Source of the DNA: Candidatus Bathyarchaeota archaeon
Lineage (GTDB): Archaea > Thermoproteota > Bathyarchaeia > TCS64
Direction of reading: 5' to 3'
DNA: 49,057 bases
NCBI GenBank assembly: GCA_016783485.1
Contig: JADHWM010000005.1
Location: 1-49,057 of the forward strand
Shown here: piece after piece, positions 21,818 to 38,321 of the stretch
Layout: each line of letters begins with the position of its first letter
How positions within the stretch are numbered: position 1 is the stretch's first letter
The notes under the pieces: model-generated
Told to the model about the DNA's origin: nothing
Database searches by the model: none
The model's input: the letters and a program-made list of their open reading frames with translations, nothing else
Position numbers and translations under genes: made by a program

Positions 21818-21843
21818 CGGGGGGTAGATCAGAACTGCAGACC
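21818..21843 (-). repeat. Possible degraded tRNA-iMet 3' fragment (copy 1)
   Basis: The plus strand reads GGGGGGTAGATCAGAACTGC, close to the T-arm/acceptor part of the initiator tRNA at 38247 (GGGGGGTAGATTTGAACTAC). It lies just after the MFS gene and in the same orientation as the other copies. It is the most divergent and leftmost of the set. Confidence 0.4.
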
Positions 21844-21892
21844 ACAGAGTCTGCTATTTATTTGCGTCTCCCCTCATTATAATGGAGCCTCG

Positions 21893-22450
21893 ATGATCGA
21901 TCTCACAGAATGGTCTCTGGAAGACCCCGATGGATCATTGACCGTTCATGGTGGTCGGGTCAGCTGGGTGAAGGCTGACAGGAGCGCCGTGAGGTACGTC
22001 TGCAGGGAGGCCCAGGTAAAAGAGGGCTTCCATCACAGTTTCACGGTCTGCATGGAGGAGGGCCACGTCGAGGACGAGCTGAACCGGGGGCTCCTCAGGC
22101 TCTGGGAGCTCCGCCGGGACTGGGAGAACCGCATCTGGATCTACGCCCGGAAGACCACCGGGGGATGGACGGTCCACTTCGAGCAGCGGCACCAAGGTCA
22201 GGACCTCTGGGCTTATCACGGCGCGGAGACCCTCAATTGGAGACAGAGATACACGGTCGAACTCAGTAGAACGGAAAACCAGCACAGACTCAGAGTGATG
22301 AACGAAGAAACGAACGCTCTGCACGTCGATACAGGGGATATTCGAGGCGTGAACCAACCCTTCGACTGGATCTGGATCGCATCCACACTCAAATCCCGAA
22401 GGAACAACGGGAACTGGAGCACGGGCTACATCGAGAAACTGTCATTGTAG
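21893..22450 (+). CDS. Conserved-looking hypothetical protein, beta-rich
   Basis: A 185-residue soluble protein. I do not recognise the family. The pattern is rich in beta strands and aromatic residues (EWSLEDPDGSLTVHGGRVSW, WENRIWIYARKTTGGWTVHF, FDWIWIASTLKSRR), which recalls concanavalin/LamG-type jelly rolls. No signal peptide or membrane helix is seen. The ATG at 21893 fits a TATA-like TATTTATT at about 21855-21862. It is the first cargo gene to the right of the putative leftmost tRNA fragment. Confidence 0.6.
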   Translation: MIDLTEWSLEDPDGSLTVHGGRVSWVKADRSAVRYVCREAQVKEGFHHSFTVCMEEGHVEDELNRGLLRLWELRRDWENRIWIYARKTTGGWTVHFEQRHQGQDLWAYHGAETLNWRQRYTVELSRTENQHRLRVMNEETNALHVDTGDIRGVNQPFDWIWIASTLKSRRNNGNWSTGYIEKLSL

Positions 22451-22541
22451 CCGGATCTCCGCGACAGATCTAGACGAGGGGGTATTGATGGTTTCGCGCA
22501 CGGCGGGGTTTATTACTATCAGTAAGGAAGGAAGGGGTGGC

Positions 22542-23216
22542 ATGCAATACGAGATCAAAACCATATATCAAAAATACCTGATGACCGTAAACTGCTACCT
22601 TCTAAAAACACCATCCGGCTTCATCCTGATCGACACGGGCCTCCCGAAAAGACGCAGCGACCTCGTGAGAGAACTGGAGACCGCGGGCTGCAAGCCTGGA
22701 GACCTCAAGCTCATCGTAATAACCCACGGACACCTCGATCACAACGGCAACACCGCCTACCTCCGCGAAAAATACGATGCCAAGGTAGCCATGCACGGCG
22801 GCGACTCGGCGATGGTTGAGAGCGGAGACATGTTCAGGGGCGTGAAGGGGCTCACCGTGGCGATCGTCAGGATTATGCTCCCGCTGGTCGGAATGAGCAG
22901 ATACGACTGCTTCAAACCGGACATAGCTCTCGAGGATGGGCGCGACCTCTCCGAGTACGGATTCGATGCCAGAGTGGTCCACGTCCCGGGGCACTCCAAG
23001 GGCTCGATAGGCGTCCTGACGGCCGAGGGTGACCTGTTCTGCGGCGACATTCTCGGGAACACTGACAAACCAGCTAAGACTACAATCGTGGACGACTCGG
23101 TTGAATTGGATGCGAGCGTCGAGAGACTGAAGACTTTGGGGATAAGGACGGTCTACCCCGGGCACGGTAAGCCGTTCCGGATGGATCAATACGCGGGTGG
23201 ACTAGGGGTTCAATAA
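22542..23216 (+). CDS. Metallo-beta-lactamase-fold hydrolase
   Basis: A 224-residue MBL-fold enzyme. The zinc motif is ITHGHLDHNGN (HxHxDH), the next His/Asp ligands lie in HVPGHSKGSIGVL and FCGDILGNT, and the last His is in TVYPGHGKPF. The strand TPSGFILIDTGLPK at the N-terminus is typical. ATG 22542 follows a purine-rich AAGGAAGGGGTGG, and longer frames from 22485 add no family sequence. Members hydrolyse thioesters, lactones or nucleic acids; this one is not assignable further. Confidence 0.87.
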   Translation: MQYEIKTIYQKYLMTVNCYLLKTPSGFILIDTGLPKRRSDLVRELETAGCKPGDLKLIVITHGHLDHNGNTAYLREKYDAKVAMHGGDSAMVESGDMFRGVKGLTVAIVRIMLPLVGMSRYDCFKPDIALEDGRDLSEYGFDARVVHVPGHSKGSIGVLTAEGDLFCGDILGNTDKPAKTTIVDDSVELDASVERLKTLGIRTVYPGHGKPFRMDQYAGGLGVQ

Positions 23217-23316
23217 CGGTTTCCTATTCTGTTTGCTCATACAGAGAAGGGCGGGTAATAGTCCCAGCCGTCGATTATCTCACTCCCCTCGGGATCATGG
23301 ATTCTGCGAGAATTTC

Positions 23317-23395
23317 TATTGGTGAAATATTTTAGCTATAGAGGCGGTATTTGGTGAAATGTTTAAATTTGGTGATTTCCAGCTATTTGGTGGAG
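23317..23395. promoter_or_regulatory. Four direct repeats before vapBC (putative operator array)
   Basis: A TATTTGGTGAAAT-like repeat occurs four times: 23317-23328, 23348-23360, 23365-23378 and 23384-23395. The GGTG cores start at 23321, 23353, 23371 and 23389, so the last three are spaced exactly 18 bp. A TATA-like TTTAAATTT (23362-23370) lies between copies. Antitoxins of the AbrB type autoregulate their operons, so an operator for the VapB-like protein is likely. Confidence 0.5.
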
Positions 23396-23416
23396 AGAGT
23401 CTGATTGGAGGAAAGC

Positions 23417-23647
23417 GTGGTTAAAAGGGTGGATTCTCAGGGGCGGGTCTCCATCCCAGTGGGGTGGAGGAGGGGCTGGAAATCCGACAACGTGGTGCTG
23501 AGGCGCATCGGGGACAGGATCGAGGTGACCCCCATCGAGCCCGTCCCCCCCTCCAGCCTCTTCGACTCCATCGAGGTGGGGGACGACGTGGACTTCACGG
23601 ACCCCCACTCCCTGAAAAAGTCCCTCGTGGAGCCGGGGGAGCCTTGA
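23417..23647 (+). CDS. vapB: AbrB/VapB-type antitoxin
   Basis: A small swapped-hairpin AbrB-like antitoxin (about 76 residues). The DNA-binding strand pair is VVKRVDSQGRVSIPVGWRR, the usual N-terminus of VapB. A C-terminal acidic tail (DDVDFTDPHSLKKSL) probably wraps the toxin. GGAGG at 23407-23411 suits a GTG start at 23417; TTG 23405 is an alternative. The stop overlaps the start of vapC (TTGA). The four repeats upstream are likely its operator. Confidence 0.82.
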   Translation: MVKRVDSQGRVSIPVGWRRGWKSDNVVLRRIGDRIEVTPIEPVPPSSLFDSIEVGDDVDFTDPHSLKKSLVEPGEP

Positions 23648-24072
23648 GGTTCGTCGACTCCAACGTCTTCCTCCACGCCCTCCTGACGCCCCGCCGGAAA
23701 CTCACCGGGGAGGAGCTCAGGGTCAAGGAGAGCGCCAAGGGGATCATAACGGGGATCGAGGGGGGCGAGGAGGTGGCCACCTCCACGGTCCACCTCTCGG
23801 AGGTGATCAACATCGTCGAGTCCGGGCTCGGGCTCCAGAGGTCCCTGGGGCTCCTGGCCTGGGCCATCACGACGCCCAATATGGTTGTGTACCCCACGAG
23901 CCTCAGGGATTACGAGGGGGCCCTCGTGGTGGCGAGGGAGGAGAACGTGAGCGTCAACGACGCCCTGGCCTACCAGTTGATGAGGGAGCACGGGCTAGAC
24001 GAGGTCTATTCCTTCGACAGGCACTTCAACCGGCTGAGGGGCATAACGAGATTACCTCTCAGTCAGGACTAA
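23644..24072 (+). CDS. vapC: PIN-domain toxin (VapC-like RNase)
   Basis: A 142-residue PIN-domain ribonuclease. The acidic triad positions are visible: LRFVDSNVFLHAL (Asp5), HLSEVINIV (Glu), VNDALAYQLM (Asp), and YSFDRHFNRL (Asp). The TTG start at 23644 overlaps the antitoxin stop by four bases. Toxins of this kind cut tRNA or rRNA; this array of initiator-tRNA fragments makes tRNA-iMet a tempting but unproved target. It stands next to a tRNA-derived repeat at 24165. Confidence 0.85.
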   Translation: MRFVDSNVFLHALLTPRRKLTGEELRVKESAKGIITGIEGGEEVATSTVHLSEVINIVESGLGLQRSLGLLAWAITTPNMVVYPTSLRDYEGALVVAREENVSVNDALAYQLMREHGLDEVYSFDRHFNRLRGITRLPLSQD

Positions 24073-24110: not shown

Positions 24111-24195
24111 CACGGAACCGTGAACATCCGAAATCCCTTATCATATGCCACCACTCACAACGACGGGCAGCGTTGGGTAGATTTGAGCCGTCGAC
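24111..24195 (-). repeat. tRNA-iMet 3' fragment with its flank (copy 2)
   Basis: 24165-24195 contains GGGTAGATTTGAGCCGTCGA, matching the T-arm and acceptor of the initiator tRNA. 24111-24162 resembles 38157-38207, the flank on the 3' side of the intact tRNA (for example CACCACTCACAA occurs in both). So the copy carries both tRNA and flank sequence. Confidence 0.6.
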
Positions 24196-24225
24196 ACTGA
24201 TGTCGTGAGCGCGAGTAGGCCGGCA

Positions 24226-25448
24226 TCAGATGTTTCGGGTCATCTCTCCTATTATCTGCAGTGTGCGGTCGATCTCGCGCTCGCTGTTGTAGATGTGGGT
24301 GCTGTATCTGACGCCCCTGTCCTCACGGAGCGCCCGGGGCTGTATCTTTCCCTTCCTCCAAAGCTCGTCCTGGAGCGCCTTGCCCTCGATCCCGTCTACC
24401 TTGAACGTGGTGAGCCCCGAGCTCATCTGCGGGTGCAATGGCGTGACCATCTCGACACTCTCCATCAGGCTCAGGCCCCGGCGTAGGCGGTCCCCCAGCT
24501 CCTTGATCCTCCCGTAGACTCTCTCCGGGCCGATCTCGAAGTGGAGGTCCAGGGCCGCCTCGAATCCCTTGAGCAGGGCGGGGTTCCCCGTTGTCCCAGC
24601 CGGTACCCGTTGTCCTCGTGGTTGTTCCACTGGGTGCTGGCCAGGGTGGTCCAGACCTCGTCGATGAGGGTCTCCTTCACGTATAGGAAGCCGTTCCCCG
24701 CCGGCGCCATCAGCCATTTGTGGGGGCTAGAGTAGTAGGCGTCGCAGCCTATCTCCCTCACGTCTATGGGGATGTGGCCCGTCGCCTGGGCTCCGTCGAT
24801 CACGGAGAGTATGCCGTTTTCTCTGGCAAGGCTGCATAGCTCCTTGACTGGGAGGATCATGCCCTGTTCCGATGAGATGTGGGGGAAGGACATGACGCGG
24901 GTCTCCGGCCTGATCGCCTTCTCGAAGGCCTCGACTATCCGTCCGGGGTCCTCCACGGGTATGGGTATCTCCGCCTTGCACAGCGTCGTCCCCCTCCGCT
25001 CGGCGAGGAGCTCCCAGCCGCATCGGCCCCCCGGGTGTTCGATGTCCGTGATCAGCACCTCCGAACCCGCGGGCAGGTCCAGGCCGTTGGCGAGGAGGTT
25101 CATGCCCATCGTCGCGTTCTGCGTGAGGGCGACGAGGGAGTGGTGGGCGTTGATCAGTTCGCCTATCTTCGTCCTCAGCTCCGTGTCAGGGGAGTATCCC
25201 GAGAGGAGGCTCATCCCTCCTCCGCTCCAGTCCACGTGGGCGACCTCGACCATGGATCTCACCGTGTGGCCGACCACGACGTGGAGCACCCGGAGGGGTG
25301 AAGCCCCGATGGTCCCGGTGTTGCAGTACGCCTCGTCGGGGGGCATCGGGAACTGCTCCCGGATCTTCCTCCAGTAGTCGGGGTCGTCGTGTGCGGGTAG
25401 CGGGGGGATTCTTCGATGAAGGGCTTCCCAAGGGAGTTCGTCAGGCAT
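24226..25448 (-). pseudogene. Class V aminotransferase (isopenicillin-N-epimerase-like), frameshifted
   Basis: Two overlapping frames together form a full-length class V PLP enzyme of about 407 residues. The first (ATG 25448) covers the N-terminal and PLP parts: TQNATMGMNLLANGL, ITDIEHPGGRCGW, VIDGAQATGHIPIDV, and SSPHKWLMAPAGNGFLYV with the Schiff-base Lys. At about 24583-24597, within NGYRLGQRGT, the frame changes, and the C-terminal part (GNPALLKGFEAALDLHFE) continues in another frame to the stop at 24226. The shift lies in a G/C run, so it may be real decay, programmed, or a sequence error. The promoter TATATAA at 25478-25484 would give a leaderless mRNA. Confidence 0.75.
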
Positions 25449-25584: not shown

Positions 25585-25608
25585 TGGGGGGTAGATTTGA
25601 ACCACCCA
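25585..25608 (-). repeat. tRNA-iMet 3' fragment (copy 3)
   Basis: GGGGGGTAGATTTGAACCAC on the plus strand matches the acceptor/T-arm of the initiator tRNA. Similarity ends right after the T-stem. It lies between the class V aminotransferase and the M29-like gene. Confidence 0.6.
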
Positions 25609-25631: not shown

Positions 25632-26669
25632 TTAGATCAGGAGCTTCCCCTTGTCGATGATGGGCACACCGTCGATCTCCACCCTCGGCTTCCTCAGCAC
25701 GATGTCCAGGTGAATGTTGCAGGGGACGGCGGGAGTGCACCCCCTGCCGTAGGCCACGTGGACGTTGCCGAGGCGTTTCTTCTCCTCCGAGAACTCCCCT
25801 GTCTCCCGGCAGAGGGGGTTGGTGCCCATGGCGAACTCCCCGAAGTTGTCGGCGTTGGGTATGTTCTCGATGAGCCAGCGGAACTTGTCCGCGTCCCCTC
25901 CCAGGCCGATGGTCTCCACATACTTGCCATCCTCCAGGATCAGCTTCAGCGGCTCCTTGTAGGCGTCCCAGGGGTAGTTGCCGTAGACCCCGGTGCTCTC
26001 CCGGACGTGGTTCATGGGCCCATCCACGACTATGACGCCGTTGGCGGAGCCCAGGACGGGGTAGATCTCGAACTCTCCGTCGGGGGTGCACCCCGATGTG
26101 CCCGGCTTGTCCGCCATGCCGGTGTAGTTGATGTTTCTCGCGCCTTTGACGCTGCATCGGAGGTCTGTGCCCAGCGGGCTGGTGCAGTGGACCTCTCCTT
26201 CGCCGTCCTCCACGTAGGGCCTCATCCGTTCCCCTATGTCGTGGAAGACCTTTGGGTCGCAGTCTGCGCCTCCCCCGGTCATGCTCCTCAGCGTCCTGCA
26301 CTCCAGGGTCATCCGCCGGGTCTTCTTGTCCTCCATCATCTGGGTGTACTCGGGGGGGACATCGGGGTAGAGGGAGTAACCCACGTCGATGAAGAGGTCG
26401 GTGGCTAACAGGGCTCTCTTGGCTATGTCGGTGAGGATTCTGGGGCTGGATTCGTCCATCCAGGCGTCCTGGACGAGGAGGTTCCATCGTGCGCCGGCCG
26501 CTGCGGCCGCCTGGGCGAGGGTCATGGACATCTCGAGCTCCGTCTTGGTGTCGGTGAGGATGAGCACTTCCTCGCCGGGTTTCACCGCGCACCGCTCGTT
26601 GATGATCTTGTGGGCGTACTTGGCCGCCTCGATCTTCGACCAGAATGGGGTTCCGCCCGCCATTGACAT
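25632..26669 (-). CDS. M29-like metallopeptidase/dioxygenase family protein
   Basis: A 345-residue protein of the M29 aminopeptidase (thermophilic leucyl aminopeptidase) superfamily. Seen segments are VKPGEEVLILTDTKTELEMS at the N-terminus, GGGADCDPKVF, EGEVHCTSPLGTDLRCSVKG, GLGGDADKFRWLIENIPNAD, NFGEFAMGTNP, and a His-containing VHVAYGRGCTPAVPCNIHLD. The same fold includes 2,5-dihydroxypyridine dioxygenase, so peptidase or dioxygenase activity is possible. ATG 26669 (MSMAGG) or ATG 26663 can start it. It lies alone between two tRNA fragments. Confidence 0.8.
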   Translation of the reverse strand: MSMAGGTPFWSKIEAAKYAHKIINERCAVKPGEEVLILTDTKTELEMSMTLAQAAAAAGARWNLLVQDAWMDESSPRILTDIAKRALLATDLFIDVGYSLYPDVPPEYTQMMEDKKTRRMTLECRTLRSMTGGGADCDPKVFHDIGERMRPYVEDGEGEVHCTSPLGTDLRCSVKGARNINYTGMADKPGTSGCTPDGEFEIYPVLGSANGVIVVDGPMNHVRESTGVYGNYPWDAYKEPLKLILEDGKYVETIGLGGDADKFRWLIENIPNADNFGEFAMGTNPLCRETGEFSEEKKRLGNVHVAYGRGCTPAVPCNIHLDIVLRKPRVEIDGVPIIDKGKLLI

Positions 26670-26990
26670 GGTGTTCAGTTAGTTATCTTCGATCGAGATA
26701 TAAGGCATGAAGGCGCCCCGAGGGCCAGTTTCAGGCACCGGAGACTAGGAACCGCCCCAACGTGAAAAACGAGGCATTCACGCATCATTATGCGGGCAAA
26801 AGTAGCCGGTGTAGATTTTAACCACCGACCTACAGGGATTTTGAAGCGTTTTTATAGGTTTTTTCCGACATTTGGCTTTTCTCATAGATAAGCTTCAATT
26901 GTGCGAGCATATTTGATGATCACCGTTTTCGATTTCTTCTTATCTGAGTAGCCATCTTGTATCGGGATTACCCTGAGTCTACTTGAGGGG
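26670..26990. other. Intergenic stretch between M29-like and MFS genes
   Basis: Apart from tRNA fragment copy 4 (26803-26831) I see no gene or hairpin here. The right half is AT-rich, with several possible TATA elements (for example TTTTTATAGG near 26849), any of which could serve the MFS gene. Confidence 0.5.
26803..26831 (-). repeat. tRNA-iMet 3' fragment (copy 4)
   Basis: The plus strand reads GTGTAGATTTTAACCACCGA then CCT, matching the T-arm and variable loop of the initiator tRNA with a few changes. The acceptor part (TAGCCGGT) is damaged. Confidence 0.55.
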
Positions 26991-28232
26991 ATGAGGGAGT
27001 TCTGGCGTACCCAGAAAACAAATTACAGGCTCATGATCGCCAGGGACAGCCTCACCATGTTCAGCGGCAGGCGCCCCATGGAGAGGGGCATGGGCGGCTA
27101 CGAGGGCATATTCCTCAGCCGCCTCGGCGCATCCGCATTGCAGATCGGTTACGTCAACGGCATCATAGGTCTCCTAAACGTGTTACTGGCAGTTCCAAGC
27201 GGCTGGCTCATAGACAGATCTAGCGATATCAGGCGGATCTACTTCGCCAGCTTTGCGCTGAGTCTCCCAGCCCTTCTAGCCCTGTACTTCACCACGGACT
27301 GGCGGATGTACTTGGGGGTGATGCTGCTTTACGCTGTGAGCATCAGCATCCAGCATCCGTCTCAACTCATCATGGACATAGACTCGATGGAGGACTCTTC
27401 GAGGGTCTCAGGGCTCGGGTTCCACAGGACGATTACGGCCATCGCGGGCGTCGCGTCTCCCATAGTTATAGCATACGCTGTCAACTTCTTCGGTGGACTG
27501 GATTCCGCTGACAGCATCAGACCGTTGTTTCTAGTCTTCTTCGCTGTGGACATCGTGATTCTATGCATCGTGACCCGCTACGCTGAGCGCGTTCACATCA
27601 AGAGGGAGGAGAAGAGCACTAACATCCTCGATGGCGTGAAGGCGGTCATCAATGGTCCGGCGCCTCTCAAGCTGCTTCTCATCAGTGAGGTCACCACTGT
27701 TTTCGCCATGCTCATGGTGACGCCGTTCAGGGGCATCTATCAGATCGACATAAAGATGGCGAGCATCTTCATCTTTGGCTGGATCGGCGTAGCTGAGCCC
27801 GCCATTGACATCTTCTTCAGCATGCCGTTGGCCAACCTCGTGGAGAGGTACGGAAGGAAGAAGACAGCGTACGTGGGACACGTATTCGGTATCCTCGCGA
27901 GGCTCGTCCTCGTCATCACGCCTGTGACCTTTCCCCAGATGCTCATCATGGTGAGCGTCCTCGGAAGCTTCGAGGGATGCCTCTACGTTGGCATGGACGC
28001 CTATAGCCAGGAAGCCATCCCCCAGAGAGTCAGGGGCAGCTACACGGGGCTCAAGAACCTCATCGTGGGTGTCACGGGCGTGCTCAGCCCGATAGTCGGC
28101 GGCTACATCTGGGAGCTGAACCCCGACCTGCTCTTCTGGGTTCCTGTCGCCCAGTGGAGCCTCATCGCCTTCCCTATACTGGTCGTCCTCATGAAGAGGT
28201 ACAGTGTAGACGGATACGTGTTGCCCCAGTAG
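26991..28232 (+). CDS. MFS transporter
   Basis: A 413-residue membrane protein with about 12 helices. The first half has a weaker MFS loop (SGWLIDRSSDIRRIY) and the second half NLVERYGRKKTAYVG. The N-terminus is basic (REFWRTQKTNYRLMIARD). An unusual feature is the stretch MFSGRRPMERGMGGYEGIFL in the first helix region. Substrate unknown. It lies alone between tRNA fragments 4 and 5, which suggests it is one cassette. Confidence 0.86.
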   Translation: MREFWRTQKTNYRLMIARDSLTMFSGRRPMERGMGGYEGIFLSRLGASALQIGYVNGIIGLLNVLLAVPSGWLIDRSSDIRRIYFASFALSLPALLALYFTTDWRMYLGVMLLYAVSISIQHPSQLIMDIDSMEDSSRVSGLGFHRTITAIAGVASPIVIAYAVNFFGGLDSADSIRPLFLVFFAVDIVILCIVTRYAERVHIKREEKSTNILDGVKAVINGPAPLKLLLISEVTTVFAMLMVTPFRGIYQIDIKMASIFIFGWIGVAEPAIDIFFSMPLANLVERYGRKKTAYVGHVFGILARLVLVITPVTFPQMLIMVSVLGSFEGCLYVGMDAYSQEAIPQRVRGSYTGLKNLIVGVTGVLSPIVGGYIWELNPDLLFWVPVAQWSLIAFPILVVLMKRYSVDGYVLPQ

Positions 28233-28280
28233 GGATTTCATCCGATGCACGTGCGCGATTATAATGGGTGTTCAAAACAA

Positions 28281-28322
28281 GGCAGATACATTTGAACCAG
28301 CCGACCTCGGGGTTATGAGCCC
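28281..28322 (-). repeat. tRNA-iMet 3' half, including anticodon arm (copy 5)
   Basis: The plus strand holds CCGACCTCGGGGTTATGAGC, which on the minus strand reads GCTCATAACCCC, the anticodon loop (CAT) and 3' stem of the initiator tRNA. The T-arm follows with point changes. Here homology runs from the acceptor to the anticodon stem, farther than in copies 2-4. Confidence 0.65.
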
Positions 28323-28417
28323 TAAAAAACGTGCATGGAAAAAGGGCGATGACGAAGTCGAGAAGAACTCTTTATCTTGAAGAACTTCTAGTCACCATGG
28401 AAGGTGAAAGGAAGAAG

Positions 28418-28588
28418 ATGAGATACCGAGTTTATCGATTCGATATAAAGATGACGAGGGACCAGGACAGGCTGGAGCGGTTCCTGAACAACCTGGAGGG
28501 CGAGGTCGTGACGATCATCCCCAACGTCACCCCCATGCCCGCCACATACGTGGACTTTTTGCTCATCGTAGAGAAAATAAAGGAATGA
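28418..28588 (+). CDS. Small conserved hypothetical protein
   Basis: A 56-residue protein with a compact alpha/beta look: YRVYRFDIKMTRDQDRLERF, LEGEVVTIIPN, and VDFLLIVEKIKE. I recall similar short archaeal proteins with the pattern 'LE.FLN.LeGEV..IiPNV', but no function. GGTGA at 28403-28407 suits ATG 28418; ATG 28397 and longer starts (28331) are possible. A TATA-like CTTTATCT at about 28367 agrees with a start in this area. It follows tRNA fragment 5 and precedes the ArsP cassette. Confidence 0.6.
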   Translation: MRYRVYRFDIKMTRDQDRLERFLNNLEGEVVTIIPNVTPMPATYVDFLLIVEKIKE

Positions 28589-30254: not shown

Positions 30255-30265
30255 ACAGCTGAGAG

Positions 30266-30888: not shown

Positions 30889-30911
30889 TTTTGGACTCAG
30901 GCTTCAACTAT

Positions 30912-31451
30912 CTATACGTTTCTTATCATATGGAGTTGAGCCCAGACGCCGGCTCTCCCCGCGCGCTCCCTCAGATAGGGCCAGTCCAATGTGACGTCTT
31001 CTCTCTCGAGGACGCTCTTGACGTCCTGCTCATCGATGACGCCCCGGTCGGACCTAGCCAGCTTGGTGACGATATAGTCCTCGGGGGATACCATCCACAC
31101 CTCGACCCCCGCCAGGGTCGCTTTTCGGCGTCTCCTCAGGGTCTCATCGTCCCAGACCACACCGTCGGGTTGCCTCCAGATCTCTATCTCGTAGTCGGTG
31201 AGTCTGTCGTGGAGGAGGCACACGGGGTTCTGGAACGATCCGAGTGATACTCCATAGTCCGCCCGCTCAGTCCCCTCGAGGAACCGGGTGAAGCTCTCCT
31301 CCGTAGTTAAAGCGGCGGCGACGTCTATGTCCAGGGTCGTCCTTATCCTGCCGTACATGGGGAGGACGTATCCCCCGATGAGCATGTAGTCGATTCCCTG
31401 ATCCTCTAAGAAGGATACCAATCTGTCAAGGGTCTCTGCGATCTCCGACAA
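30912..31451 (-). CDS. Nucleotidyltransferase-fold protein (DUF6036/MNT-like)
   Basis: A 179-residue protein with the nucleotidyltransferase signature LIGGYVLPMYGRIRTTLDID: a Gly-Gly followed by a D-x-D pair. A third acidic position may lie in YEIEIW. Proteins of this type occur as toxins in toxin-antitoxin and abortive infection systems, where they transfer nucleotides to tRNA or protein. The start is TTG 31451, inside the upstream HTH gene, which it overlaps by 26 bp. The pair is enclosed by direct repeats and tRNA fragments. The toxin role is inference. Confidence 0.75.
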   Translation of the reverse strand: MSEIAETLDRLVSFLEDQGIDYMLIGGYVLPMYGRIRTTLDIDVAAALTTEESFTRFLEGTERADYGVSLGSFQNPVCLLHDRLTDYEIEIWRQPDGVVWDDETLRRRRKATLAGVEVWMVSPEDYIVTKLARSDRGVIDEQDVKSVLEREDVTLDWPYLRERAGRAGVWAQLHMIRNV

Positions 31452-31827
31452 TTCCGTTCAACTCCAGAAACGCCCGATAGGGGTCCCGTCCCCGGGCGAT
31501 GAGCCGGTTCACATACTCCGCGTCAGCCCTGGCCCTGAGGAGGTCGTTCCTGCTGCTCCTCAGGGGCATTCTCCTCAGCCGGTGGAACGCCTCCAGGTAG
31601 CCCTCGCCGAGGATTGAAGCCGAGACGATCCGCGCCGGCCTGCCCCTTCCAGCCCCTCTTTCCAGCGTCACATCTACGAGACCCCCGGCCTCCATCCTCT
31701 TGATCAACGAGACCACAACTTGGGTCCGCCTCCGCATGGCCCTTGATAGCTCCGTCACACCTAGGGATCTCTCTTTGACCGCGCTGAGCAGCTGCGCCTC
31801 CACCTCGACGGACAATATATTTCCCAT
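31426..31827 (-). CDS. Winged-helix DNA-binding protein, partner of the nucleotidyltransferase
   Basis: A 133-residue protein. The N-terminal winged helix is AVKERSLGVTELSRAMRRRT followed by QVVVSLIKRMEAGGLVDV. A basic tail (LRRMPLRSSRNDLLRARAD) follows. It overlaps the nucleotidyltransferase by 26 bp. ATG 31827 lies about 35 bp after a TATA-like element (GTTTAAATATGG, minus strand, near 31861-31872). It is probably an autoregulating antitoxin or regulator of the pair; no family name is certain. Confidence 0.7.
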   Translation of the reverse strand: MGNILSVEVEAQLLSAVKERSLGVTELSRAMRRRTQVVVSLIKRMEAGGLVDVTLERGAGRGRPARIVSASILGEGYLEAFHRLRRMPLRSSRNDLLRARADAEYVNRLIARGRDPYRAFLELNGIVGDRRDP

Positions 31828-31899: not shown

Positions 31900-31990
31900 C
31901 ACACCGAACAGAAAACAACCGGGAACCCTTATCCTACGCTACCACTCACATCAAATGGTAAATAGGGGTAGATTTGAGCCACCGACCTCG
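31900..31990 (-). repeat. tRNA-iMet 3' fragment with its flank (copy 7)
   Basis: 31924-31988 aligns without large gaps to 38212-38276, that is the intact tRNA's T-arm/acceptor plus its 3' flank (shared AACCCTTATCCTA, AATGGTA and GGGGTAGATTTGA). Because flank and tRNA travel together, this copy arose by integration or duplication including the tRNA's downstream DNA. Confidence 0.7.
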
Positions 31991-32107
31991 TCCTCACCCT
32001 CATCCGGCGCCACAGGTTCGGGTTGGTCGGGACCAACAAGTCATAGTTTACTCCACAATTCACCGGTTCTGGGTCAAACCCATCATACGAATGGTGCCGG
32101 GGGGGGG
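31987..32107. repeat. Direct repeat, right copy, bordering the HTH-nucleotidyltransferase block
   Basis: Partner of 30745-30864. It joins directly to tRNA fragment copy 7, so the block boundary falls in the T-arm/variable-loop part of the tRNA sequence (CCGACCTCG). Confidence 0.75.
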
Positions 32108-32150
32108 TGGAGTTCGAACCCAATATCAGGCGGTGATGTCGCCGTTTCGT
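32094..32150 (-). repeat. Second type of T-arm-like repeat (copy a)
   Basis: Minus strand: GGCGACATCACCGCC, then GGGTTCGAACTCCACCC and a C run. It pairs a near-palindrome with a TTCGAA T-loop-like motif. Copies b (33456-33500) and c (33950-33995) share the layout. The source is not identified. Confidence 0.5.
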
Positions 32151-32167: not shown

Positions 32168-33232
32168 CTAGTATCCTTGCTCGGTCTTCATGAACTCCCT
32201 GAGCAGGGTCGTGGCGAAACCGCCCTTGTGAAGCATGAACGAGAGCTGGACCCCCCGGGGAGCCTCGGTCACCTCGATCCTGGGCGTCAGCCTGCCGAAA
32301 CGACGGGTGCCGGTGACCCTCATGCGCCTGAACGTCTCCAGGGATATCTCGGATTCCTCGAGTATCTCGGCTTCGAGGGCGGCTGCCTCGCCCAGAGCCT
32401 GGGACATCTTGTGCCCGTATATGGGGGCCGTGAAGCTGATCTCCTGGGCTTCGTACCGGGGCTGCTCGGTCAAGGGGTCGTTCACCCAGAATAAGCCGCC
32501 CGTCTCATGCTTCTTAGCTATGTCACCCAGCAGCAGCCTGTCGAAGAGGCCGCGCCCCATCCTCTCGGCCAGGTACCTGTTGCAGAGGTAGCTCCTGTAC
32601 ACCGAGACCAGGAGCTTGCTGAGCCACCTGTCGGTGAACGTCTTCCGCCCTTGAAGAATCGCCCAACCATCCCGCACTTTCTCGCCGTCGTTCCCAATTC
32701 TCTGCTCGCCGTAATAGTTGGGCAGCCCTTTCAGGTGAATCGTTTCGGCTATCCTCCTCGACCTCTCCGCGGCCTGGCTCGGGGGCATGCGTGTGTCAGT
32801 GATCGTTATTTTGAACCTGTTGCCTATGAGGTGCCCCGCCCTGAGCTTGTTGCCGTGGAGCTTGGCCCAGTTCACATCGACGTTCAGGCTGCCCTCGATG
32901 AGCGCAGATGCGTCGTCGGGGCGCACGTCGTTCTTCTCGAAGAGTATGCTGAACGTCTGCGTGGTCACGGCGTGCTTGTCTTTGAGCCCCGCGGTGCCTA
33001 TGCTCTGGGGTCCGAGGTTGAAGAGGTCCGCCAGCTGGAGCTGCACGTCCCGGGTGGTCTGATTCCTCTTGGTTATGTTGACGTAGAGGTGACTCCCGGA
33101 GCCCGAGGGCTCGTAGAGGGCGACCTCTTCGACCATGAAATCCTCGGGGCGTGCCCTGATCCTGCCCCCTATGCCCTCCAGGTCCGCGGTGAGGTATGGG
33201 AGAGACAGGTCGAGGAGCGGCGGCTTGATCAT
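32168..33232 (-). CDS. truD: tRNA pseudouridine synthase TruD
   Basis: A 354-residue TruD enzyme that makes pseudouridine 13 in tRNA. The catalytic motif is GTAGLKDKHAVTTQ with Asp85. Other TruD segments are IRARPEDFMVEEV at the N-terminus, LPNYYGEQRIGNDG, and GHKMSQALGEAA near the inserted TRUD domain. The archaeal length fits. ATG 33232 is the natural start (MIKPPLLDLSLPY). It is the one clear housekeeping gene inside the tRNA-fragment array, which is unexpected, and lies between type-2 T-arm repeats. Confidence 0.93.
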   Translation of the reverse strand: MIKPPLLDLSLPYLTADLEGIGGRIRARPEDFMVEEVALYEPSGSGSHLYVNITKRNQTTRDVQLQLADLFNLGPQSIGTAGLKDKHAVTTQTFSILFEKNDVRPDDASALIEGSLNVDVNWAKLHGNKLRAGHLIGNRFKITITDTRMPPSQAAERSRRIAETIHLKGLPNYYGEQRIGNDGEKVRDGWAILQGRKTFTDRWLSKLLVSVYRSYLCNRYLAERMGRGLFDRLLLGDIAKKHETGGLFWVNDPLTEQPRYEAQEISFTAPIYGHKMSQALGEAAALEAEILEESEISLETFRRMRVTGTRRFGRLTPRIEVTEAPRGVQLSFMLHKGGFATTLLREFMKTEQGY

Positions 33233-33233
33233 T

Positions 33234-33658
33234 CTGTGATGGTTCCCGCCTGGGTTCTTGAAGGGTTCTCTTTCGCTGATTAATTGGGTGAGGGTAGGGG
33301 AAAAAGCGGGGAAAATAACCCCAAAACCCCTTCCTCGGGATATAGTGCTGTGGGGTGGGTTAAATGGGTTGCGAATAAAGTTGGGAAGGGCATGGATGCA
33401 CGTGCCTCATAGACACTGGTTTTGAGAGCCATAATCATCCAATGGTTGTCTGAGAATGCGGGGGTTTGGTTCGAACCCTACCGCTAGTGGTAATGTCACC
33501 ATCTCTATTTTTCAATCTAATATTTTATCCTCACTTCATCGCAATAGTAACATGGACTAAAGATGGTTGGACACCATCTGATGCGATGAGCGTCATCATC
33601 GATTGATAGATTTATCAGTTATCAACTTCGATCAGTCTATGAGGCGATTGAATTGGGT
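33234..33658. other. Intergenic stretch upstream of TruD
   Basis: It holds the type-2 T-arm-like repeat b (33456-33500) and a TATA-like TAGATTTATC near 33606, which could drive the small basic ORF at 33659. I see no other gene. Confidence 0.45.
33456..33500 (-). repeat. Second type of T-arm-like repeat (copy b)
   Basis: Minus strand: GGTGACATTACCAC, then GCGGTAGGGTTCGAACC and AAACCCCCGCA. It resembles copy c closely and also faintly the iMet T-arm. Confidence 0.5.
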
Positions 33659-33949: not shown

Positions 33950-33995
33950 TGACCGGGGATTGGGTCGAACCCTGCTGCCGGTGGTGATGTCACCT
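33950..33995 (-). repeat. Second type of T-arm-like repeat (copy c)
   Basis: Minus strand: GGTGACATCACCACC, GGCAGCAGGGTTCGACCC, then AATCCCCGG. The 12-base element GGTGACATCACC is a perfect palindrome except for its central CA. Confidence 0.5.
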
Positions 33996-34100: not shown

Positions 34101-34141
34101 AGGCGGGGGGGTAGATTTGAACCACCGACCTCGAGGATATG
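34101..34141 (-). repeat. tRNA-iMet 3' half (copy 8)
   Basis: GGGGGGTAGATTTGAACCAC, then CGACCTCGAGGATATGA on the plus strand. The first part is the acceptor and T-arm; the second corresponds to the anticodon stem and loop with changes (ATATGA for TTATGA). Confidence 0.65.
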
Positions 34142-34295
34142 ATCTTTACGGTTGGATTGATTCATGTTGTTTTCCAGTTCTATCATTGGGAAGGCCAGCA
34201 TTACATACGATATTATGTGATCTGGACTTTGTCAGATCCCATTCCATAACATTGTCCAAGGATACAAATACCGAGAAAACATACTTTGGATCATC

Positions 34296-35048
34296 ATGAG
34301 AAACCTGCTCAAAGAAAAACTCCGCAAAGGAGGAAACGCCGTAGGAACCTTCATCGAACTCGGGCACCCTGACGTGGCCGAGATTCTCAGCCACAGTGGG
34401 TTCGACTGGCTGCTGATCGATGGGGAGCACAGCCCCATGGGGTTCGAGACCATGGAGCGTATGCTTCAAGCCATGGCGGGTACGGACTGCACGCCGATCA
34501 TCCGGCCCCAATGGAACGATCCCGTCATCATCAAACGTGTGCTGGACCTCGGGGCGCATGGGATCGTCGTGCCCTGGGTGAACACGGAGGAGGAAGCGGA
34601 GGCGGCGGTTAGTGCGGCGAGGTATCCGCCGGAGGGCATCAGGGGCTGGGGTCCGAGGAGGGCGTCGAGATGGGACCCCGATTACAGGGACACCGCCAAC
34701 GAGGAGATTCTCGTGGCCGTTCAGGTCGAGACGCAGATGAGCCTGGATAACCTCGATGCCATCATGGGGGTCGATGGAGTTGATGCCTGTTACGTCGGTC
34801 CCTGGGACCTGAGCAACAATCTCGGGTTCAGCGTTCCCCCTGACTACGATAACAAGGCTTTCACCGATGCCATCGAGTACGTGCTCGGAGTGGCTGCTGA
34901 TCACGGCAAGCCTGCGGGTATGTGGTGTAACCTCGATAATGTGGGCTGGGCCGTGGGGAAGGGGTTCAGGTTCAACACGGTCATCGACGCGGATACGATG
35001 CTGGCGTATGGCGCCGCTGAGGCCGTGAAACGGGGAAGGGGAGACTGA
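34296..35048 (+). CDS. HpcH/HpaI-family aldolase
   Basis: A 250-residue TIM-barrel class II aldolase of the HpcH/HpaI family, which cleaves 2-keto-4-hydroxy acids to pyruvate and an aldehyde using a divalent metal. Seen segments: VGTFIELGHPDVAEIL, DWLLIDGEHSPMGFE (His near the substrate), GAHGIVVPWVNTEEEAE, GIRGWGPRRASRW, VAVQVETQMSLDNLD with the metal Glu, and VDACYVGPWDLSNNLG with the metal Asp. ATG 34296 is close to the predicted transcription start. It lies between tRNA fragment 8 and repeat R1. Confidence 0.88.
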   Translation: MRNLLKEKLRKGGNAVGTFIELGHPDVAEILSHSGFDWLLIDGEHSPMGFETMERMLQAMAGTDCTPIIRPQWNDPVIIKRVLDLGAHGIVVPWVNTEEEAEAAVSAARYPPEGIRGWGPRRASRWDPDYRDTANEEILVAVQVETQMSLDNLDAIMGVDGVDACYVGPWDLSNNLGFSVPPDYDNKAFTDAIEYVLGVAADHGKPAGMWCNLDNVGWAVGKGFRFNTVIDADTMLAYGAAEAVKRGRGD

Positions 35049-35096
35049 TCCTCCCTCATATGTGAGGGCCCCCCAGTTTTCCCCGTGTCTTCCTCG

Positions 35097-35215
35097 TGCG
35101 CAGCTATCAGTGAATGAGGCGCGTGCACAGTTGGTTTTTTATACGCGTTTTATTTGCCCCTCAATAATTCAAGGGAGCCCGTTACGGAACCAGATAACAC
35201 TGAAACCAGATATGC
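35097..35215. repeat. Direct repeat R1, left copy, bordering the Trx-CcdA cassette
   Basis: GTGCGCAGCTATCAGTGAAT, then GAGGCGCGTGCACAG, a T-rich stretch with TATACGCGTTTTATTTGCCC, and TTCAAGGGAGCC. The same order recurs at 36892-37012 with few differences. GTGCGC and GCGTGCAC near the left end form an imperfect dyad. Confidence 0.8.
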
Positions 35216-35288
35216 ATCCACACGGACAGATTGGAACCTTATCCAACAAACCCAGAATATTTAATAAACTAAATATATTGATAGAGTA

Positions 35289-35561
35289 ATGCTTCAGGGG
35301 TCAACGAGAGTGAACCAGTCAAATAGAATATATACACAGAAACTAAACAAAATACTCGCGCGGCGTGCGCGCGAACCCGTATTATTGAGAGCTTCACCTG
35401 CGTATGGAATACTGTCGGCTTGTAAGAATAATGACCCTGATCTTCTAATTCTGGATAGAGGTAACAGAAGGTTCACTGTGTTTGGCTTAGGTAGTGATGT
35501 TTGGTCTCAGGTTCGAAGAGGATGCCATAAGCCATTACTAGAATTAAAGAAGGTTAACTAA
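35289..35561 (+). CDS. Hypothetical protein in the Trx-CcdA cassette
   Basis: A 90-residue frame with no recognised domain. Notable segments are ILARRAREPVLLRASPAYGI and DLLILDRGNRRFTVFGLGSD. It ends one base before the GTG of the thioredoxin-like gene, which supports co-translation. Composition is AT-rich like the next two genes. A TATA-like AATATTTAATAAACTAAATA lies just upstream (near 35255-35275). Confidence 0.5.
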   Translation: MLQGSTRVNQSNRIYTQKLNKILARRAREPVLLRASPAYGILSACKNNDPDLLILDRGNRRFTVFGLGSDVWSQVRRGCHKPLLELKKVN

Positions 35562-35562
35562 T

Positions 35563-36135
35563 GTGAATAACAAATACTTACTCCTAGGTATCGGCATTAT
35601 AGCTATACTCTTAGCCAGTTTTGTATTCATAAACGGAAATAACCAAAACAAAGGGGCTGACTCAGACTCAAATAATGTGAATGATGACTCTTTCGCCAGT
35701 CCCGTGTTTAAGTTAGTAGACCTTCGAGGCGTCGAGTATCGTTTAACAGATTATAAAGGAACCCCAGTATTAGTGCATTTTATGGCGGTATCATGCGGAG
35801 GCGAATACTCTGACCTGAATGATAACCAGCTTAAACAGATGAAAATACTATGCGATACTCTCTGCAATGAAGATAAAATAACCATGTTTACCGTTCTTGT
35901 ATCAACCTGTGAAACAACTGATCTGTCTCAACTCTATAACATGTATAATATTACCTGGATTATGGGAAATGATTATCAGGATAACAAGCTTGACGTGATA
36001 GAGATATTCAGCGAATATGAGCCAGAGGATGGGCTGATAATCCTAATGGATCAAGAGCATGTGGTTAAAGACGTCATAAAGGGAAGTATCTCAGCCAAGA
36101 CGCTTGTTGATGAAATATTTCAATTAGGGGGCTAA
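35563..36135 (+). CDS. Membrane-anchored thioredoxin-like (TlpA/SCO-type) protein
   Basis: A 190-residue protein with an N-terminal membrane helix (YLLLGIGIIAILLASFVFI) and an outward-facing thioredoxin-like domain: PVFKLVDLRGVEYRLTDYKG, then TPVLVHFMAVSCGGEYSDLN where TlpA/SCO proteins have their CxxC or CxxxC. Here only one Cys is at that place (SCGGE), while other Cys occur later (LCDTLCNED, VSTCETTD). The partner Cys may therefore be elsewhere, or the protein may not be a standard oxidoreductase. GTG start at 35563. It directly precedes a CcdA-like gene, the usual electron donor of such proteins. Confidence 0.75.
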   Translation: MNNKYLLLGIGIIAILLASFVFINGNNQNKGADSDSNNVNDDSFASPVFKLVDLRGVEYRLTDYKGTPVLVHFMAVSCGGEYSDLNDNQLKQMKILCDTLCNEDKITMFTVLVSTCETTDLSQLYNMYNITWIMGNDYQDNKLDVIEIFSEYEPEDGLIILMDQEHVVKDVIKGSISAKTLVDEIFQLGG

Positions 36136-36139
36136 CAGG

Positions 36140-36826
36140 ATTCTCTACCTAAGTTTATTCATTTATGGTCTAACGACATTCATCTCGCCATGCTCTATAG
36201 GATTAGTCACGGCTTATCTGACCTACACAGTTAAAGACGCATCCACTAGAAGTCATGCGCTCCTCGTCGGGTTATGCTATATGTCAGCCATGGGCCTTGT
36301 GTTTTTTATCTTTGGGTACGCTTTATCCTCCCTCATACCCGTAAATCTTGCTTCGGGTAAACTGTTTTACGGCTTGGCGGGTATTTTGATGATAATTCTC
36401 GGGGGGAATACCCTTGGATTGTTGGAAAAGTTTGAACCCCTACAAGCATTAATCTTCAAAATATCTGATGGCTCAGACAGCATTAGATCTGGTTTAATGT
36501 CTAGAGTTGGTGGAGGTAATGTTTTCATTAGCGCATTTGTTTTCGGGGTTGTCATATCTATTGCTCTCGGTCCCTGTTCTCTGGCACTGGTCTTGCCCGC
36601 CGTTATGATGACATTATTTAATGCTCCTTCTGCGGTTCACGGTGGGTTACAACTGTTTGCTTTTGGCATCGGGCATGGCGTACCTGTTTTATTGTTGAGC
36701 GTGCTCGTTTCCGAGACAAGATTTCTGCTCAGTAAAAAGCTCGTAAAAATCGGAGGAGCGTTAAATTACCTCGTTGGATCAGGGTTAATTTTACTGGGTC
36801 TATGGTTAATCTTAGAGGCTTTATAA
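36140..36826 (+). CDS. ccdA: CcdA/DsbD-type thiol-disulfide transmembrane protein, unusual start
   Basis: A 229-residue membrane protein with about six helices and the two CcdA Cys motifs: LTTFISPCSIGLVTAY in the first helix and SIALGPCSLALVLPAV in the fourth. It moves electrons from the cytoplasm to outward-facing thioredoxins such as the one just upstream. The first canonical start is ATG 36281, which would remove the first SPC motif. The frame is open back to 36128 without ATG, GTG or TTG, so translation must begin at ATT 36140 (AGGGGG lies 8 bases upstream), or arise by a +1 frameshift from the preceding gene at AGGGGGC. Confidence 0.75.
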   Translation: MLYLSLFIYGLTTFISPCSIGLVTAYLTYTVKDASTRSHALLVGLCYMSAMGLVFFIFGYALSSLIPVNLASGKLFYGLAGILMIILGGNTLGLLEKFEPLQALIFKISDGSDSIRSGLMSRVGGGNVFISAFVFGVVISIALGPCSLALVLPAVMMTLFNAPSAVHGGLQLFAFGIGHGVPVLLLSVLVSETRFLLSKKLVKIGGALNYLVGSGLILLGLWLILEAL

Positions 36827-36891
36827 TTAGGGGGGTACTAGGTGCATTTTTGTTATCTTATTTTTTAGAAATGATTTCTTTTTTACTCGCA

Positions 36892-37012
36892 CGTGCGCAG
36901 CTATCAGTGAATGAGGCGCGTGCACAGTCGGTTTTTTATACGCGTTTTATTTGCCCCTCAAATATTCAAGGGAGCCTGTTACGGAACCACAGAACAATGA
37001 AACCATCCACAA
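36892..37012. repeat. Direct repeat R1, right copy
   Basis: Partner of 35097-35215, running into sequence that also resembles 37970-38030 next to tRNA copy 10 (shared AACCATCC and AACAACTGGTAGCGG further on). So R1 is the normal 3' flank of the tRNA fragments. Confidence 0.8.
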
Positions 37013-37046
37013 ACATCCCACTAACATACAGGGGGAGAGCAACAAC

Positions 37047-37090
37047 TGGTAGCGGGAAGTAGATGTTTATTACCGTCCTTGGGGCGCGCG
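37047..37090 (-). repeat. tRNA-iMet 3' fragment (copy 9, degraded)
   Basis: TGGTAGCGGGAAGTAGATGT then TTATTACCGTCCTTGGGG. It keeps the encoded CCA (TGG), the acceptor start and parts of the T-arm. It shares the preceding flank AGAGCAACAAC with copy 10. Confidence 0.6.
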
Positions 37091-37107
37091 CCTTGAACCA
37101 AGAGGGT

Positions 37108-37878
37108 TTAAAGGAAATCTCTTCGTCCGCCGTCGACCAGGAGGATTTTTCCGGTGATGTATCTCGATTCATCGCTTGCGAAGAATAGCACAGCGTTGGC
37201 GATGTCTTCGGGGGTGCCGGTCATCCCCAGAGACGACGCGTCTCTCCTTCCCTCGAGCACCTTCTCGTATTCATCATCGCTCCGGTTCCCCCTCAGCATG
37301 ACCGTGTCAACTGCTCCAGGTGCGACGCAATTGACGTTGATGTTATGTCTTCCGAGCTCGAAGGCTGAGCTTTTGGTGAGCTGTATCACGCCTGCTTTCG
37401 AGACGGCGTAGCTGTTATCGCCGGGCATGGCTATGCCGAACCCGGAGTTGGAGGAGATGTTCACTATCTTCCCGTAATTCCTCTCTATCATGTGCCTCGC
37501 GGCTATCTGGGTGCAGAGGAAGACGCCCTTGAGGTTGATCTCCATGTGCTTATCCCATATCTCGTCGGTGGTCTCGAGCAACGAGGCTCCAATCGCTATC
37601 CCCGCATTGTTGACGAGAATATCGACCTTGTCGAACTCGTCTACCGTGGCGGTGAACATGTTCTCCACCTCCTCCCTTTTCGAGACGTCGCATCTGACGG
37701 CGATAGCCTTCCCGCCCATCTGCCTGATGGAGTTAACGACCTCCTCCGCTTCGTCTCGGCTCTTACTATAATTGATGGTTACTGCGCATCCGCATCTCGC
37801 GAGAGCTAATGCGATAGATCTCCCAATACTACGGGAAGACCCAGTTACGACCGCTACCTTATTCGTGAAATCAAACAC
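37108..37878 (-). CDS. Short-chain dehydrogenase/reductase (FabG-like)
   Basis: A 256-residue SDR. The cofactor loop is TGSSRSIGRSIA, the NNAG motif is ILVNNAGIAIG, and the catalytic Ser-Tyr-Lys are in VNISSNSGFGIAMPG and NSYAVSKAGV. A C-terminal YITGKILLVDGG is typical of the FabG type. The substrate is not readable. It is the only gene between tRNA copies 9 and 10, which makes it a one-gene cassette. The sequence upstream of ATG 37878 is AT-rich and suits a promoter. Confidence 0.9.
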   Translation of the reverse strand: MFDFTNKVAVVTGSSRSIGRSIALALARCGCAVTINYSKSRDEAEEVVNSIRQMGGKAIAVRCDVSKREEVENMFTATVDEFDKVDILVNNAGIAIGASLLETTDEIWDKHMEINLKGVFLCTQIAARHMIERNYGKIVNISSNSGFGIAMPGDNSYAVSKAGVIQLTKSSAFELGRHNINVNCVAPGAVDTVMLRGNRSDDEYEKVLEGRRDASSLGMTGTPEDIANAVLFFASDESRYITGKILLVDGGRRDFL

Positions 37879-38034
37879 TCCAAATCACTTTTCCTAAAGA
37901 GATAATTGGTTATTAAATAAGTTATATTGGCTTTCTCTAAGAGCGCGCGCGAATAGAATAAGTCTATACAGAGCCAGATAACGATAAAACCATCCCAAAA
38001 CACCCCAACAACAAACAAAGGGGAGGGCAACAAC

Positions 38035-38093
38035 TGGTAGCGGGGGGTAGATTTTAACCATCGACCTCGGATATGAGCCCCACGGGTCAACCC
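38035..38093 (-). repeat. Degraded tRNA-iMet copy, longest (copy 10)
   Basis: It runs from the encoded CCA (TGG) through acceptor, T-arm, variable loop and anticodon arm (GGATATGAGCCCCACGGG on the plus strand) into part of the D-arm, with mutations in the T-loop (TTTTAAC) and anticodon stem. The 5' acceptor strand is absent, so it is a pseudo-tRNA. Confidence 0.75.
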
Positions 38094-38246
38094 ATCATTA
38101 AACCATCAGAAAACACGGAACAGAGAACCCCACGACCCACAAACCACAGACATTCACACGGAACACTGAACACCAGAAAACCCTCATCATACACCACCAC
38201 TCACAAGCCCCAGAACCCTTATCCTAAGCCAGCCGCACGAGAATGG
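38094..38246. repeat. 3' flank of the intact tRNA, with internal duplication
   Basis: No gene seen. 38157-38207 and 38212-38243 look like two successive versions of one flank (AACCCTCATCATAC and AACCCTTATCCTAA). Related sequence stands next to tRNA copies 2 and 7. Confidence 0.55.
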
Positions 38247-38321
38247 TAGCGGGGGGTAGATTTGAACTACCGACCTTGGGGTTATGAGCCCCACGGGCTA
38301 ACCTGGCTGCCCTACCCCGCT
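38247..38321 (-). tRNA. Initiator tRNA-Met (CAT), CCA encoded next to it
   Basis: A complete cloverleaf of 75 nt. Acceptor AGCGGGG pairs with CCCCGCT. The D-stem is GGGC/GCCC with loop AGCCAGGTTA. The anticodon stem is TGGGG/CCCCA with loop CTCATAA (anticodon CAT). The T-arm is GGTAG-TTCAAAT-CTACC and the discriminator is A. The A1-T72 pair and the GGG/CCC pairs next to the anticodon loop are marks of archaeal initiator tRNA. The plus-strand TGG at 38244-38246 encodes CCA directly after it. It is the intact reference for the ten or so degraded copies to its left, and it lies at the right end of the array, facing away from the rnp4-dphB-ribL operon. Confidence 0.93.

Follow-up and report, generated by a model that had tools for sequence, protein, structure and literature searches.

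A tRNA-anchored array of initiator tRNA 3'-end copies and accessory genes in a Bathyarchaeota genome

Introduction

Additive flexible genomic islands that are seated at a tRNA gene and hold repeated tRNA 3' ends have been described as fGI1 in Alteromonas (PMC4119200) and as fGI-2 in the Methylophilaceae, in which the repeats are the last 20 nt of tRNA-Lys (PMC10872708). The latter source also describes tycheposons, transposon-like elements of 4-200 kb that carry their recombinase and have tRNA-Met among their targets. Archaeal elements with tyrosine recombinases re-use one integration site (PMC6563490), and the Thermococcus integrase Int-pTN3 recombines both tRNA sites and ~100-bp homologous segments (PMC5495485). 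Integrase genes of the pNOB8 type, whose consensus is R...YxxR...Y (PMC8371274), stand intact directly beside the rebuilt tRNA and on its strand (PMC3293823). Here we describe an array in which accessory genes are interspersed with incomplete copies of the initiator tRNA (tRNA-iMet) 3' end in a Candidatus Bathyarchaeota archaeon, a member of a group of abundant uncultured sediment archaea whose acquisition of genes is little known. The stretch of DNA analysed (the window; 49,057 nt) is the entire contig C90 (JADHWM010000005.1) of a metagenome-assembled genome (MAG; GCA_016783485.1, here G000) of 2.13 Mb in 116 contigs that is 70% complete. An initial annotation of the window had held that no such system was described, a statement that the Alteromonas and Methylophilaceae islands with their repeated tRNA 3' ends contradict.

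Results

The initiator tRNA and its partial copies

ARAGORN identified an intact initiator tRNA-Met(CAT) on the minus strand at 38244-38321 (Rfam, 66.3 bits), which is the sole full copy in the MAG and is treated here as the attachment site attB. Its sequence has the A1-U72 pair and the GGG/CCC anticodon stem of an initiator, its 3' end is directed into the array, and the genes for Rnp4 and DphB stand beside it, a context shared with QDN_3 (G001, same genus) and other genomes of the family. QDN_3 and bin16 (G006, same family), both Candidatus Bathyarchaeota MAGs, were retrieved for comparison via DphB, the gene neighbouring tRNA-iMet; further genomes, contigs and loci are denoted by G, C and L numbers.

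On the 3' side of this tRNA, and in its orientation, its 3' part recurs in ten incomplete copies between 21818 and 38092. With the intact tRNA as blastn query they were located, from the tRNA outward and all on the minus strand, at 38035-38092 (57 nt, 84%), 37047-37084, 34101-34151 (blastn 34101-34106), 31954-31988, 30848-30893, 28287-28322, 26798-26844 (blastn 26802), 25586-25606 (21 nt, 95%), 24163-24210 (71%) and 21818-21843 (26 nt, 85%), the last being the outermost clear copy. These positions match those listed in the initial annotation, and its central observation of an intact tRNA-iMet with about ten fragments in one orientation is confirmed. At a cut-off of at least 27 bits there were ten plus-strand matches, no minus-strand match and none elsewhere in the window, and 100 dinucleotide shuffles used as a control gave none. 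A possible extra fragment at 20491-20526 (minus strand) is doubtful, its E value of 0.5 not being significant alone.

None of the ten fragments overlaps a gene, although intergenic sequence makes up only 26% of the array. The initiator tRNA was the best source for 10/10 fragments in a library of 60 tRNAs from the window genome and QDN_3, and an Rfam scan of the fragments for other RNAs returned tRNA only. Outside the window contig, the rest of the MAG held only two 17-base chance matches to tRNA-iMet at E <= 1 (genome-wide tests were run on individual genome regions), so that the fragments are not spread through the genome. The farther a fragment in the window lies from the tRNA, the lower its bit score (Spearman -0.85, p = 0.002). 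The sequence that flanks the fragments beyond the tRNA end is conserved and falls into two classes, which would fit the ends of elements. The initial description of the copies as degraded 3' parts needs widening, since in relatives some span almost the whole tRNA (positions 3-77 of 80).

Between the last fragment and the tRNA lies a gene-free leader (38093-38243) that is conserved in QDN_3 (L031 19281-19399). The fragment adjoining the leader, 38035-38092, has the same right part as the QDN_3 site, and the left part there belongs to the MFS unit described below.

Variation between close relatives

The window and QDN_3 share a left flank (4883-20388) and a right flank from DphB onward. Between these flanks, the VapBC, ArsP and HTH-nucleotidyltransferase units are collinear with QDN_3 contig C24, and the TruD, aldolase and SDR units with contig C1. 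The MFS1, aminotransferase, M29-like and Trx/CcdA units were found in the window only, whereas the units found only in QDN_3 include histidine phosphatase, TBP, FmdE-like, LarA-like, M20 and ADH genes. The presence and absence of cassettes thus differ between close relatives, and relatives carry the fragments and differ by single intervals rather than having the same gene order without fragments.

One unit occupies different places in the two genomes. The MFS gene (26991-28232, plus strand; Pfam) is single-copy in both and 94% identical, and the alignment of the unit runs from one bounding fragment to the other (26798-28322 to L031 17746-19268, 93%), with fragment 26798-26844 as its left and 28287-28322 as its right border. 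It lies between the M29-like gene and a 63-aa open reading frame (ORF) in the window and adjoins the tRNA in QDN_3. Because it is single-copy in both genomes and its dS of 0.17 is similar to that of its neighbours, the unit was, judging from these comparisons, probably relocated and not acquired twice. The right junction recurs in G017, a genome of another genus, in which the 3' end of the MFS gene and its fragment also adjoin the tRNA.

The polarity test (see below) and the breakpoint test covered two genomes, the window genome and QDN_3. Eight of the 20 breakpoints fell within 10 bp of a fragment, compared with 19% of intergenic positions (p = 0.02), and wider thresholds were not significant. 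The fragments consequently mark many recombination points, not all, and the proposal that every unit border is a fragment is only partly true. Other breakpoints lie at direct repeats of 114 or 125 bp or beside GCGCGC runs.

Contigs end less than 500 bp from the 3' side of tRNA-iMet in 7/15 genomes of the family, compared with 0/15 on the 5' side and 0/11 outside the family. A 3' side that differed among members of the population would produce such breaks, which bear on that variation only indirectly. In G009 (L070 9784-9890), G014 and G018 an intron-like insert interrupts the T-loop of tRNA-iMet within the attachment region. The same genomes have no iMet fragments, in keeping with a possible protective role of tRNA introns against integration.

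Integrases and tRNA-integrated elements

As the initial annotation had noted, there is no integrase in the window: no match to PF00589 (tyrosine recombinase) was present on the contig. Tyrosine-recombinase frames emerge from the 3' end of tRNA-iMet in G021 (frameshifted), G023 and G025 (N-terminal parts) and bin16 (interrupted by Ns), and in G011 a 71% integrase homologue follows DphB-Rnp4, the tRNA position being lost in the Ns of an assembly gap. An intact homologue of 315 aa in G014 begins inside tRNA-Gln(TTG). The motif R...YxxR...Y, which is the pNOB8 consensus, is present in those at tRNA-iMet (G021, G011) and tRNA-Gln (G014), and the best match in the PDB is XerA (5hxy, 3.8e-13). Motif and sequence searches suggest that the integrases at this site are pNOB8-like/XerA-like. 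An integrase remnant by tRNA-iMet in G009 is on the 5' side and hence was not used as evidence. The G014 integrase as a query in viral contigs found nothing.

In G000 itself, an intact integrase gene is located 48 bp 3' of tRNA-Arg(CCT), and the genes behind it resemble Cdc6/Orc and ParB on reading of their sequences; the plasmid-like element at this tRNA, with its intact tyrosine recombinase, is at C81 (L137) 13170-19664. In QDN_3, a 35.8-kb element with a tyrosine integrase and both attachment copies is integrated in tRNA-Leu(TAG) (C24:112965-148774; L034, L051, L052, L068), and its genes suggest a Topo VI-like pair, a primase-helicase and a ParB-methylase. A 44-kb gap in QDN_3 was considered as an insertion at the iMet site and rejected, since it contains this tRNA-Leu element. 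Repeated integration at the tRNA-iMet 3' end, as initially proposed, is supported by the integrases at the site in relatives and by the tRNA-targeting integrases of the window's own genome.

Copies at other tRNAs

Within 6 kb of 67 tRNA genes in the two genomes, 21 degenerate tRNA copies were on the 3' side and the same strand, two on the 5' side and none on the opposite strand. A second array lies 3' of tRNA-Gln(TTG) in QDN_3, with six same-strand fragments in 6 kb (L133 8072-13734; C26). This array and the single 3' copies at other tRNAs of the same genus rule out the initiator tRNA as sole target; tRNA-Gln, -Leu, -Pro and others are alike in this respect.

Gene content of the units

Five intervals hold exactly one gene (aminotransferase, M29-like, MFS, TruD and SDR), four hold two to four genes and one (38092-38242) holds none; these counts correct the initial statement that almost every interval contains one gene or a small set. 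Gene orientation within the array is mixed. Gene calls came from a simple codon-score script, and small ORFs are uncertain for that reason.

Just left of the array, the MFS1 transporter gene (20584-21795, plus strand; Pfam), which QDN_3 is without, has the doubtful fragment at 20491 on its left and the one at 21818 on its right. The units identified through Pfam include, besides a metallo-hydrolase and MFS1, a VapBC-type pair (MazE-like/PIN; 23417-24072, plus strand; 92% in QDN_3) with fragment 24163-24210 on its right. Nothing homologous to the class V aminotransferase (24471-25448, minus strand; Pfam) or the M29-like protein (25632-26663, minus strand; below the Pfam cut-off) is present in the QDN_3 loci. 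Beyond the MFS unit follow the 63-aa ORF (28397-28588, plus strand; no Pfam family) and a set (28942-30613; Pfam) of an ArsP permease (plus), a small thioredoxin (plus) and ArsR (minus) that is 95-98% identical in QDN_3.

The HTH-nucleotidyltransferase unit, a DUF2204 nucleotidyltransferase with a winged-helix protein (30912-31827, minus strand; Pfam), has fragment 30848-30893 on its left and 31954-31988 on its right. Four genomes from two genera (the window; L034, L036, L038) have this pair next to iMet fragments, and its winged-helix protein was present in only 6/31 genomes searched; homologues of the unit in G005 and G016 had no tRNA fragment within the short flanks examined. The TruD-like pseudouridine synthase (32168-33232, minus strand) is unlikely to be a displaced core gene because it is patchy in the family and has a second copy in G000. 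Fragment 34101-34151 lies left of the HpcH/HpaI aldolase (34296-35048, plus strand; Pfam), and 37047-37084 is at the right end of the AT-rich Trx-like/CcdA unit (35127-37085, plus strand), which is absent from QDN_3. The SDR unit (37108-37878, minus strand; Pfam) completes the series. The TruD gene, the MFS1 gene and the T-arm-like repeats at 32095, 33455 and 33955 (below) had been missed in the initial annotation.

The units shared with QDN_3 have dN/dS values of 0.04-0.36 and are under purifying selection. A search of a plasmid collection gave no match. TATA-binding-protein genes were observed in or near tRNA-fragment arrays of two genera (L031 11371-11955, L036 12096-12668).

Other repeats in the array

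A tRNA-Leu-like T-arm fragment at 32095-32146 (minus strand) marks the point at which homology to QDN_3 switches from contig C24 to C1. A second T-arm-like repeat (33455-33500, minus strand) has one copy in the window and two in QDN_3, where they enclose the histidine-phosphatase gene; the window site with its single repeat is empty. A further copy (33955-33994, minus strand) is 82.5% identical to 33461-33500. An attempt to name a tRNA for the repeats at 33455 and 33955 found no match in the 60-tRNA library, and because of this we call them merely T-arm-like.

Two copies of a 125-bp repeat (30739-30863 and 31981-32105, 88.8% identical) flank the HTH-nucleotidyltransferase unit, and the former is homologous to sequence beside the QDN_3 tRNA-Leu attachment copy. 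Direct repeats of 114 bp (35095-35208 and 36892-37005, 94%) stand at the ends of the Trx/CcdA unit. Hybrid fragments, namely 30848-30893 with its tRNA-Leu-type flank and one at the TruD border, change tRNA type within the T-loop. Together, the hybrid fragments and the ~110-125-bp repeats suggest later recombination. GCGCGC runs are present at several unit breakpoints (window 37084-37091 and 37943-37950; L031 10899 and 13734; L034 8946; L035 10471), the hexamer being rare in the window (seven occurrences), and could be a second kind of junction.

Discussion

We consider it likely that the array is an additive tRNA-anchored island that arose by serial integration at the tRNA-iMet 3' end, loss of element backbones and later shuffling. 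Mobile elements with a pNOB8-like/XerA-like tyrosine integrase, such as was observed at this site in relatives and in tRNA-integrated elements of the same genus, would each in turn have recombined into the 3' portion of the only tRNA-iMet gene. Each event would have rebuilt an intact tRNA on the tRNA side and pushed the displaced 3' copy and the earlier cargo outward, and repetition would give the order X-F1-E1-F2-E2-...-tRNA with all fragments in the same orientation, which is the polarity seen. From this pattern we infer one fragment per integration. The element backbones, including the integrases, would have been lost, while purifying selection kept single metabolic, transport, resistance or toxin-antitoxin genes. 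Units may later have been gained, lost and, once, shifted by exchange between fragments or between the ~110-125-bp repeats, with an enzyme whose part is likewise deduced, as the differences in gene presence and the relocation of the MFS unit indicate.

Several results weigh against this account. Just eight of 20 breakpoints are within 10 bp of a fragment, and in QDN_3 the gradient of bit score with distance was not significant. No viral or plasmid hallmark gene or recombinase gene was found in the window array, although the decay of many large elements might have left hallmark remnants there. Exact attP 31-mer and 20-mer sequences were absent from the viral contigs searched, among which no free element with this attP was found. 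In addition, large-element decay poorly explains several very tight intervals, among them that of a 513-aa gene in G013 that lies no more than 76 bp from two near-intact fragments.

Those tight one-gene intervals in G013 speak for an integron-like system, in which a gene with one tRNA 3' end forms a small non-autonomous unit that is moved singly by a trans-acting, tRNA-targeting integrase and preferentially enters adjoining the tRNA. The MFS unit, fragment-bounded at different places in two genomes while single-copy and with a dS like its neighbours, is a further point in its favour, and its end and fragment adjoin the tRNA in G017 too; the leader-proximal fragment, moreover, is constant on the right while its left part varies with the neighbouring unit, and the lone histidine-phosphatase gene between T-arm repeats in QDN_3 is matched by a one-copy empty site in the window. 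Nonetheless, no circular unit or active excision was seen, about half of the breakpoints are off the fragments, most fragments have degenerated too far to serve well as substrates and several units have two to four genes, and we regard this explanation as unlikely. It is similarly doubtful that archaea possess a cassette system in which tRNA 3' ends (Met; elsewhere Gln, Leu and others) take the role of attC and a pNOB8-like integrase acts in trans. Such a system would include entry beside the tRNA, relocation and, because recombination tolerates the shared T-loop, passage of units between tRNA loci, a combination to which we give the same low credence. That single genes moved alone is favoured by the MFS relocation, by the one-gene site seen both empty and filled and by the tight G013 intervals, and disfavoured by the degraded fragments and off-fragment breakpoints.

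The direct repeats of 114 and 125 bp that flank two units, the hybrid fragments that change tRNA type inside the T-loop and the ability of Int-pTN3 to recombine ~100-bp homologous segments (PMC5495485) could also be accommodated if tandem duplication or unequal homologous recombination, by RadA or a low-specificity integrase like Int-pTN3, had produced the many tRNA 3' ends and shifted genes, with integration playing a minor part. However, the units are unrelated accessory genes and not duplicates, and the strict 3'-side polarity at many tRNAs, with integrases at the same site, points to integration, so that we find duplication improbable as the main process. Least probable of all is that part of the array is an assembly artefact, a chimeric join at short repeats. 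The MAG is only 70% complete, and at 32106, in the tRNA-Leu-like fragment, the window joins blocks that are on two QDN_3 contigs; yet each of the two QDN_3 contigs, as well as G013, G003 and G017, separately shows fragments and units, the 125-bp repeats are just 89% alike and a poor bridge for an assembler, and a false join at 32106 would still leave two halves, each an array.

On the preferred reading of serial integration, the layers of this mostly polar array, set at a single-copy tRNA that is essential, would form a countable record of integrations and of unit turnover, in which accessory genes enter at tRNA-iMet one operon at a time. The array also opens to direct test the ability of archaeal tyrosine integrases to act in trans on single-gene cassettes.

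Comparison with described systems places the locus among islands rather than integrons. A gene-unit array, a repeated border and unit-wise variation are shared with integrons, and the initial term integron-like is apt as an analogy of architecture (repeated border, insertions and deletions, one relocation, score gradient). The locus is not an integron, because its borders are tRNA ends and the array has no IntI (no PF00589 match on the window contig); orientation is also mixed. The borders match tRNA-iMet 3' halves instead of attC, for which no dedicated search was run. With tycheposons the locus shares a tRNA anchor, metabolic cargo, tRNA-Met as a target and a tyrosine recombinase, whereas the window array has no self-encoded tyrosine recombinase. 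The relatives resemble archaeal pNOB8-type elements (PMC8371274, PMC3293823) in having an R...YxxR...Y recombinase that directly adjoins the rebuilt tRNA or overlaps it, on the strand of the tRNA, and a displaced 3' copy; the window array, in contrast, is without an integrase and has ten displaced copies, not one. Re-use of a site and integrase rearrangement via ~100-bp homologous segments recall the arrays of Thaumarchaeota and Thermococcales (PMC6563490, PMC5495485), which consist of multi-gene elements, unlike the single genes without an element backbone found here.

The closest likeness is to the Alteromonas and Methylophilaceae islands, with which the locus has in common a conserved tRNA target, repeated direct copies of its 3' end, cassettes that differ in presence between close relatives and accessory metabolic and resistance cargo. 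It differs from them in its archaeal host, in the use of the initiator tRNA, in units that mostly comprise one gene or one operon and are each bordered, in the mixing of several tRNA types within the array, in the relocation of one unit and in copies that reach nearly the whole tRNA. The locus is an archaeal variant of the known additive tRNA-anchored genomic islands, and what appears to be new with respect to the literature searched is the archaeal lineage, an initiator tRNA with ten borders, the grain of one gene or one operon, the mixed tRNA types and the relocated unit.

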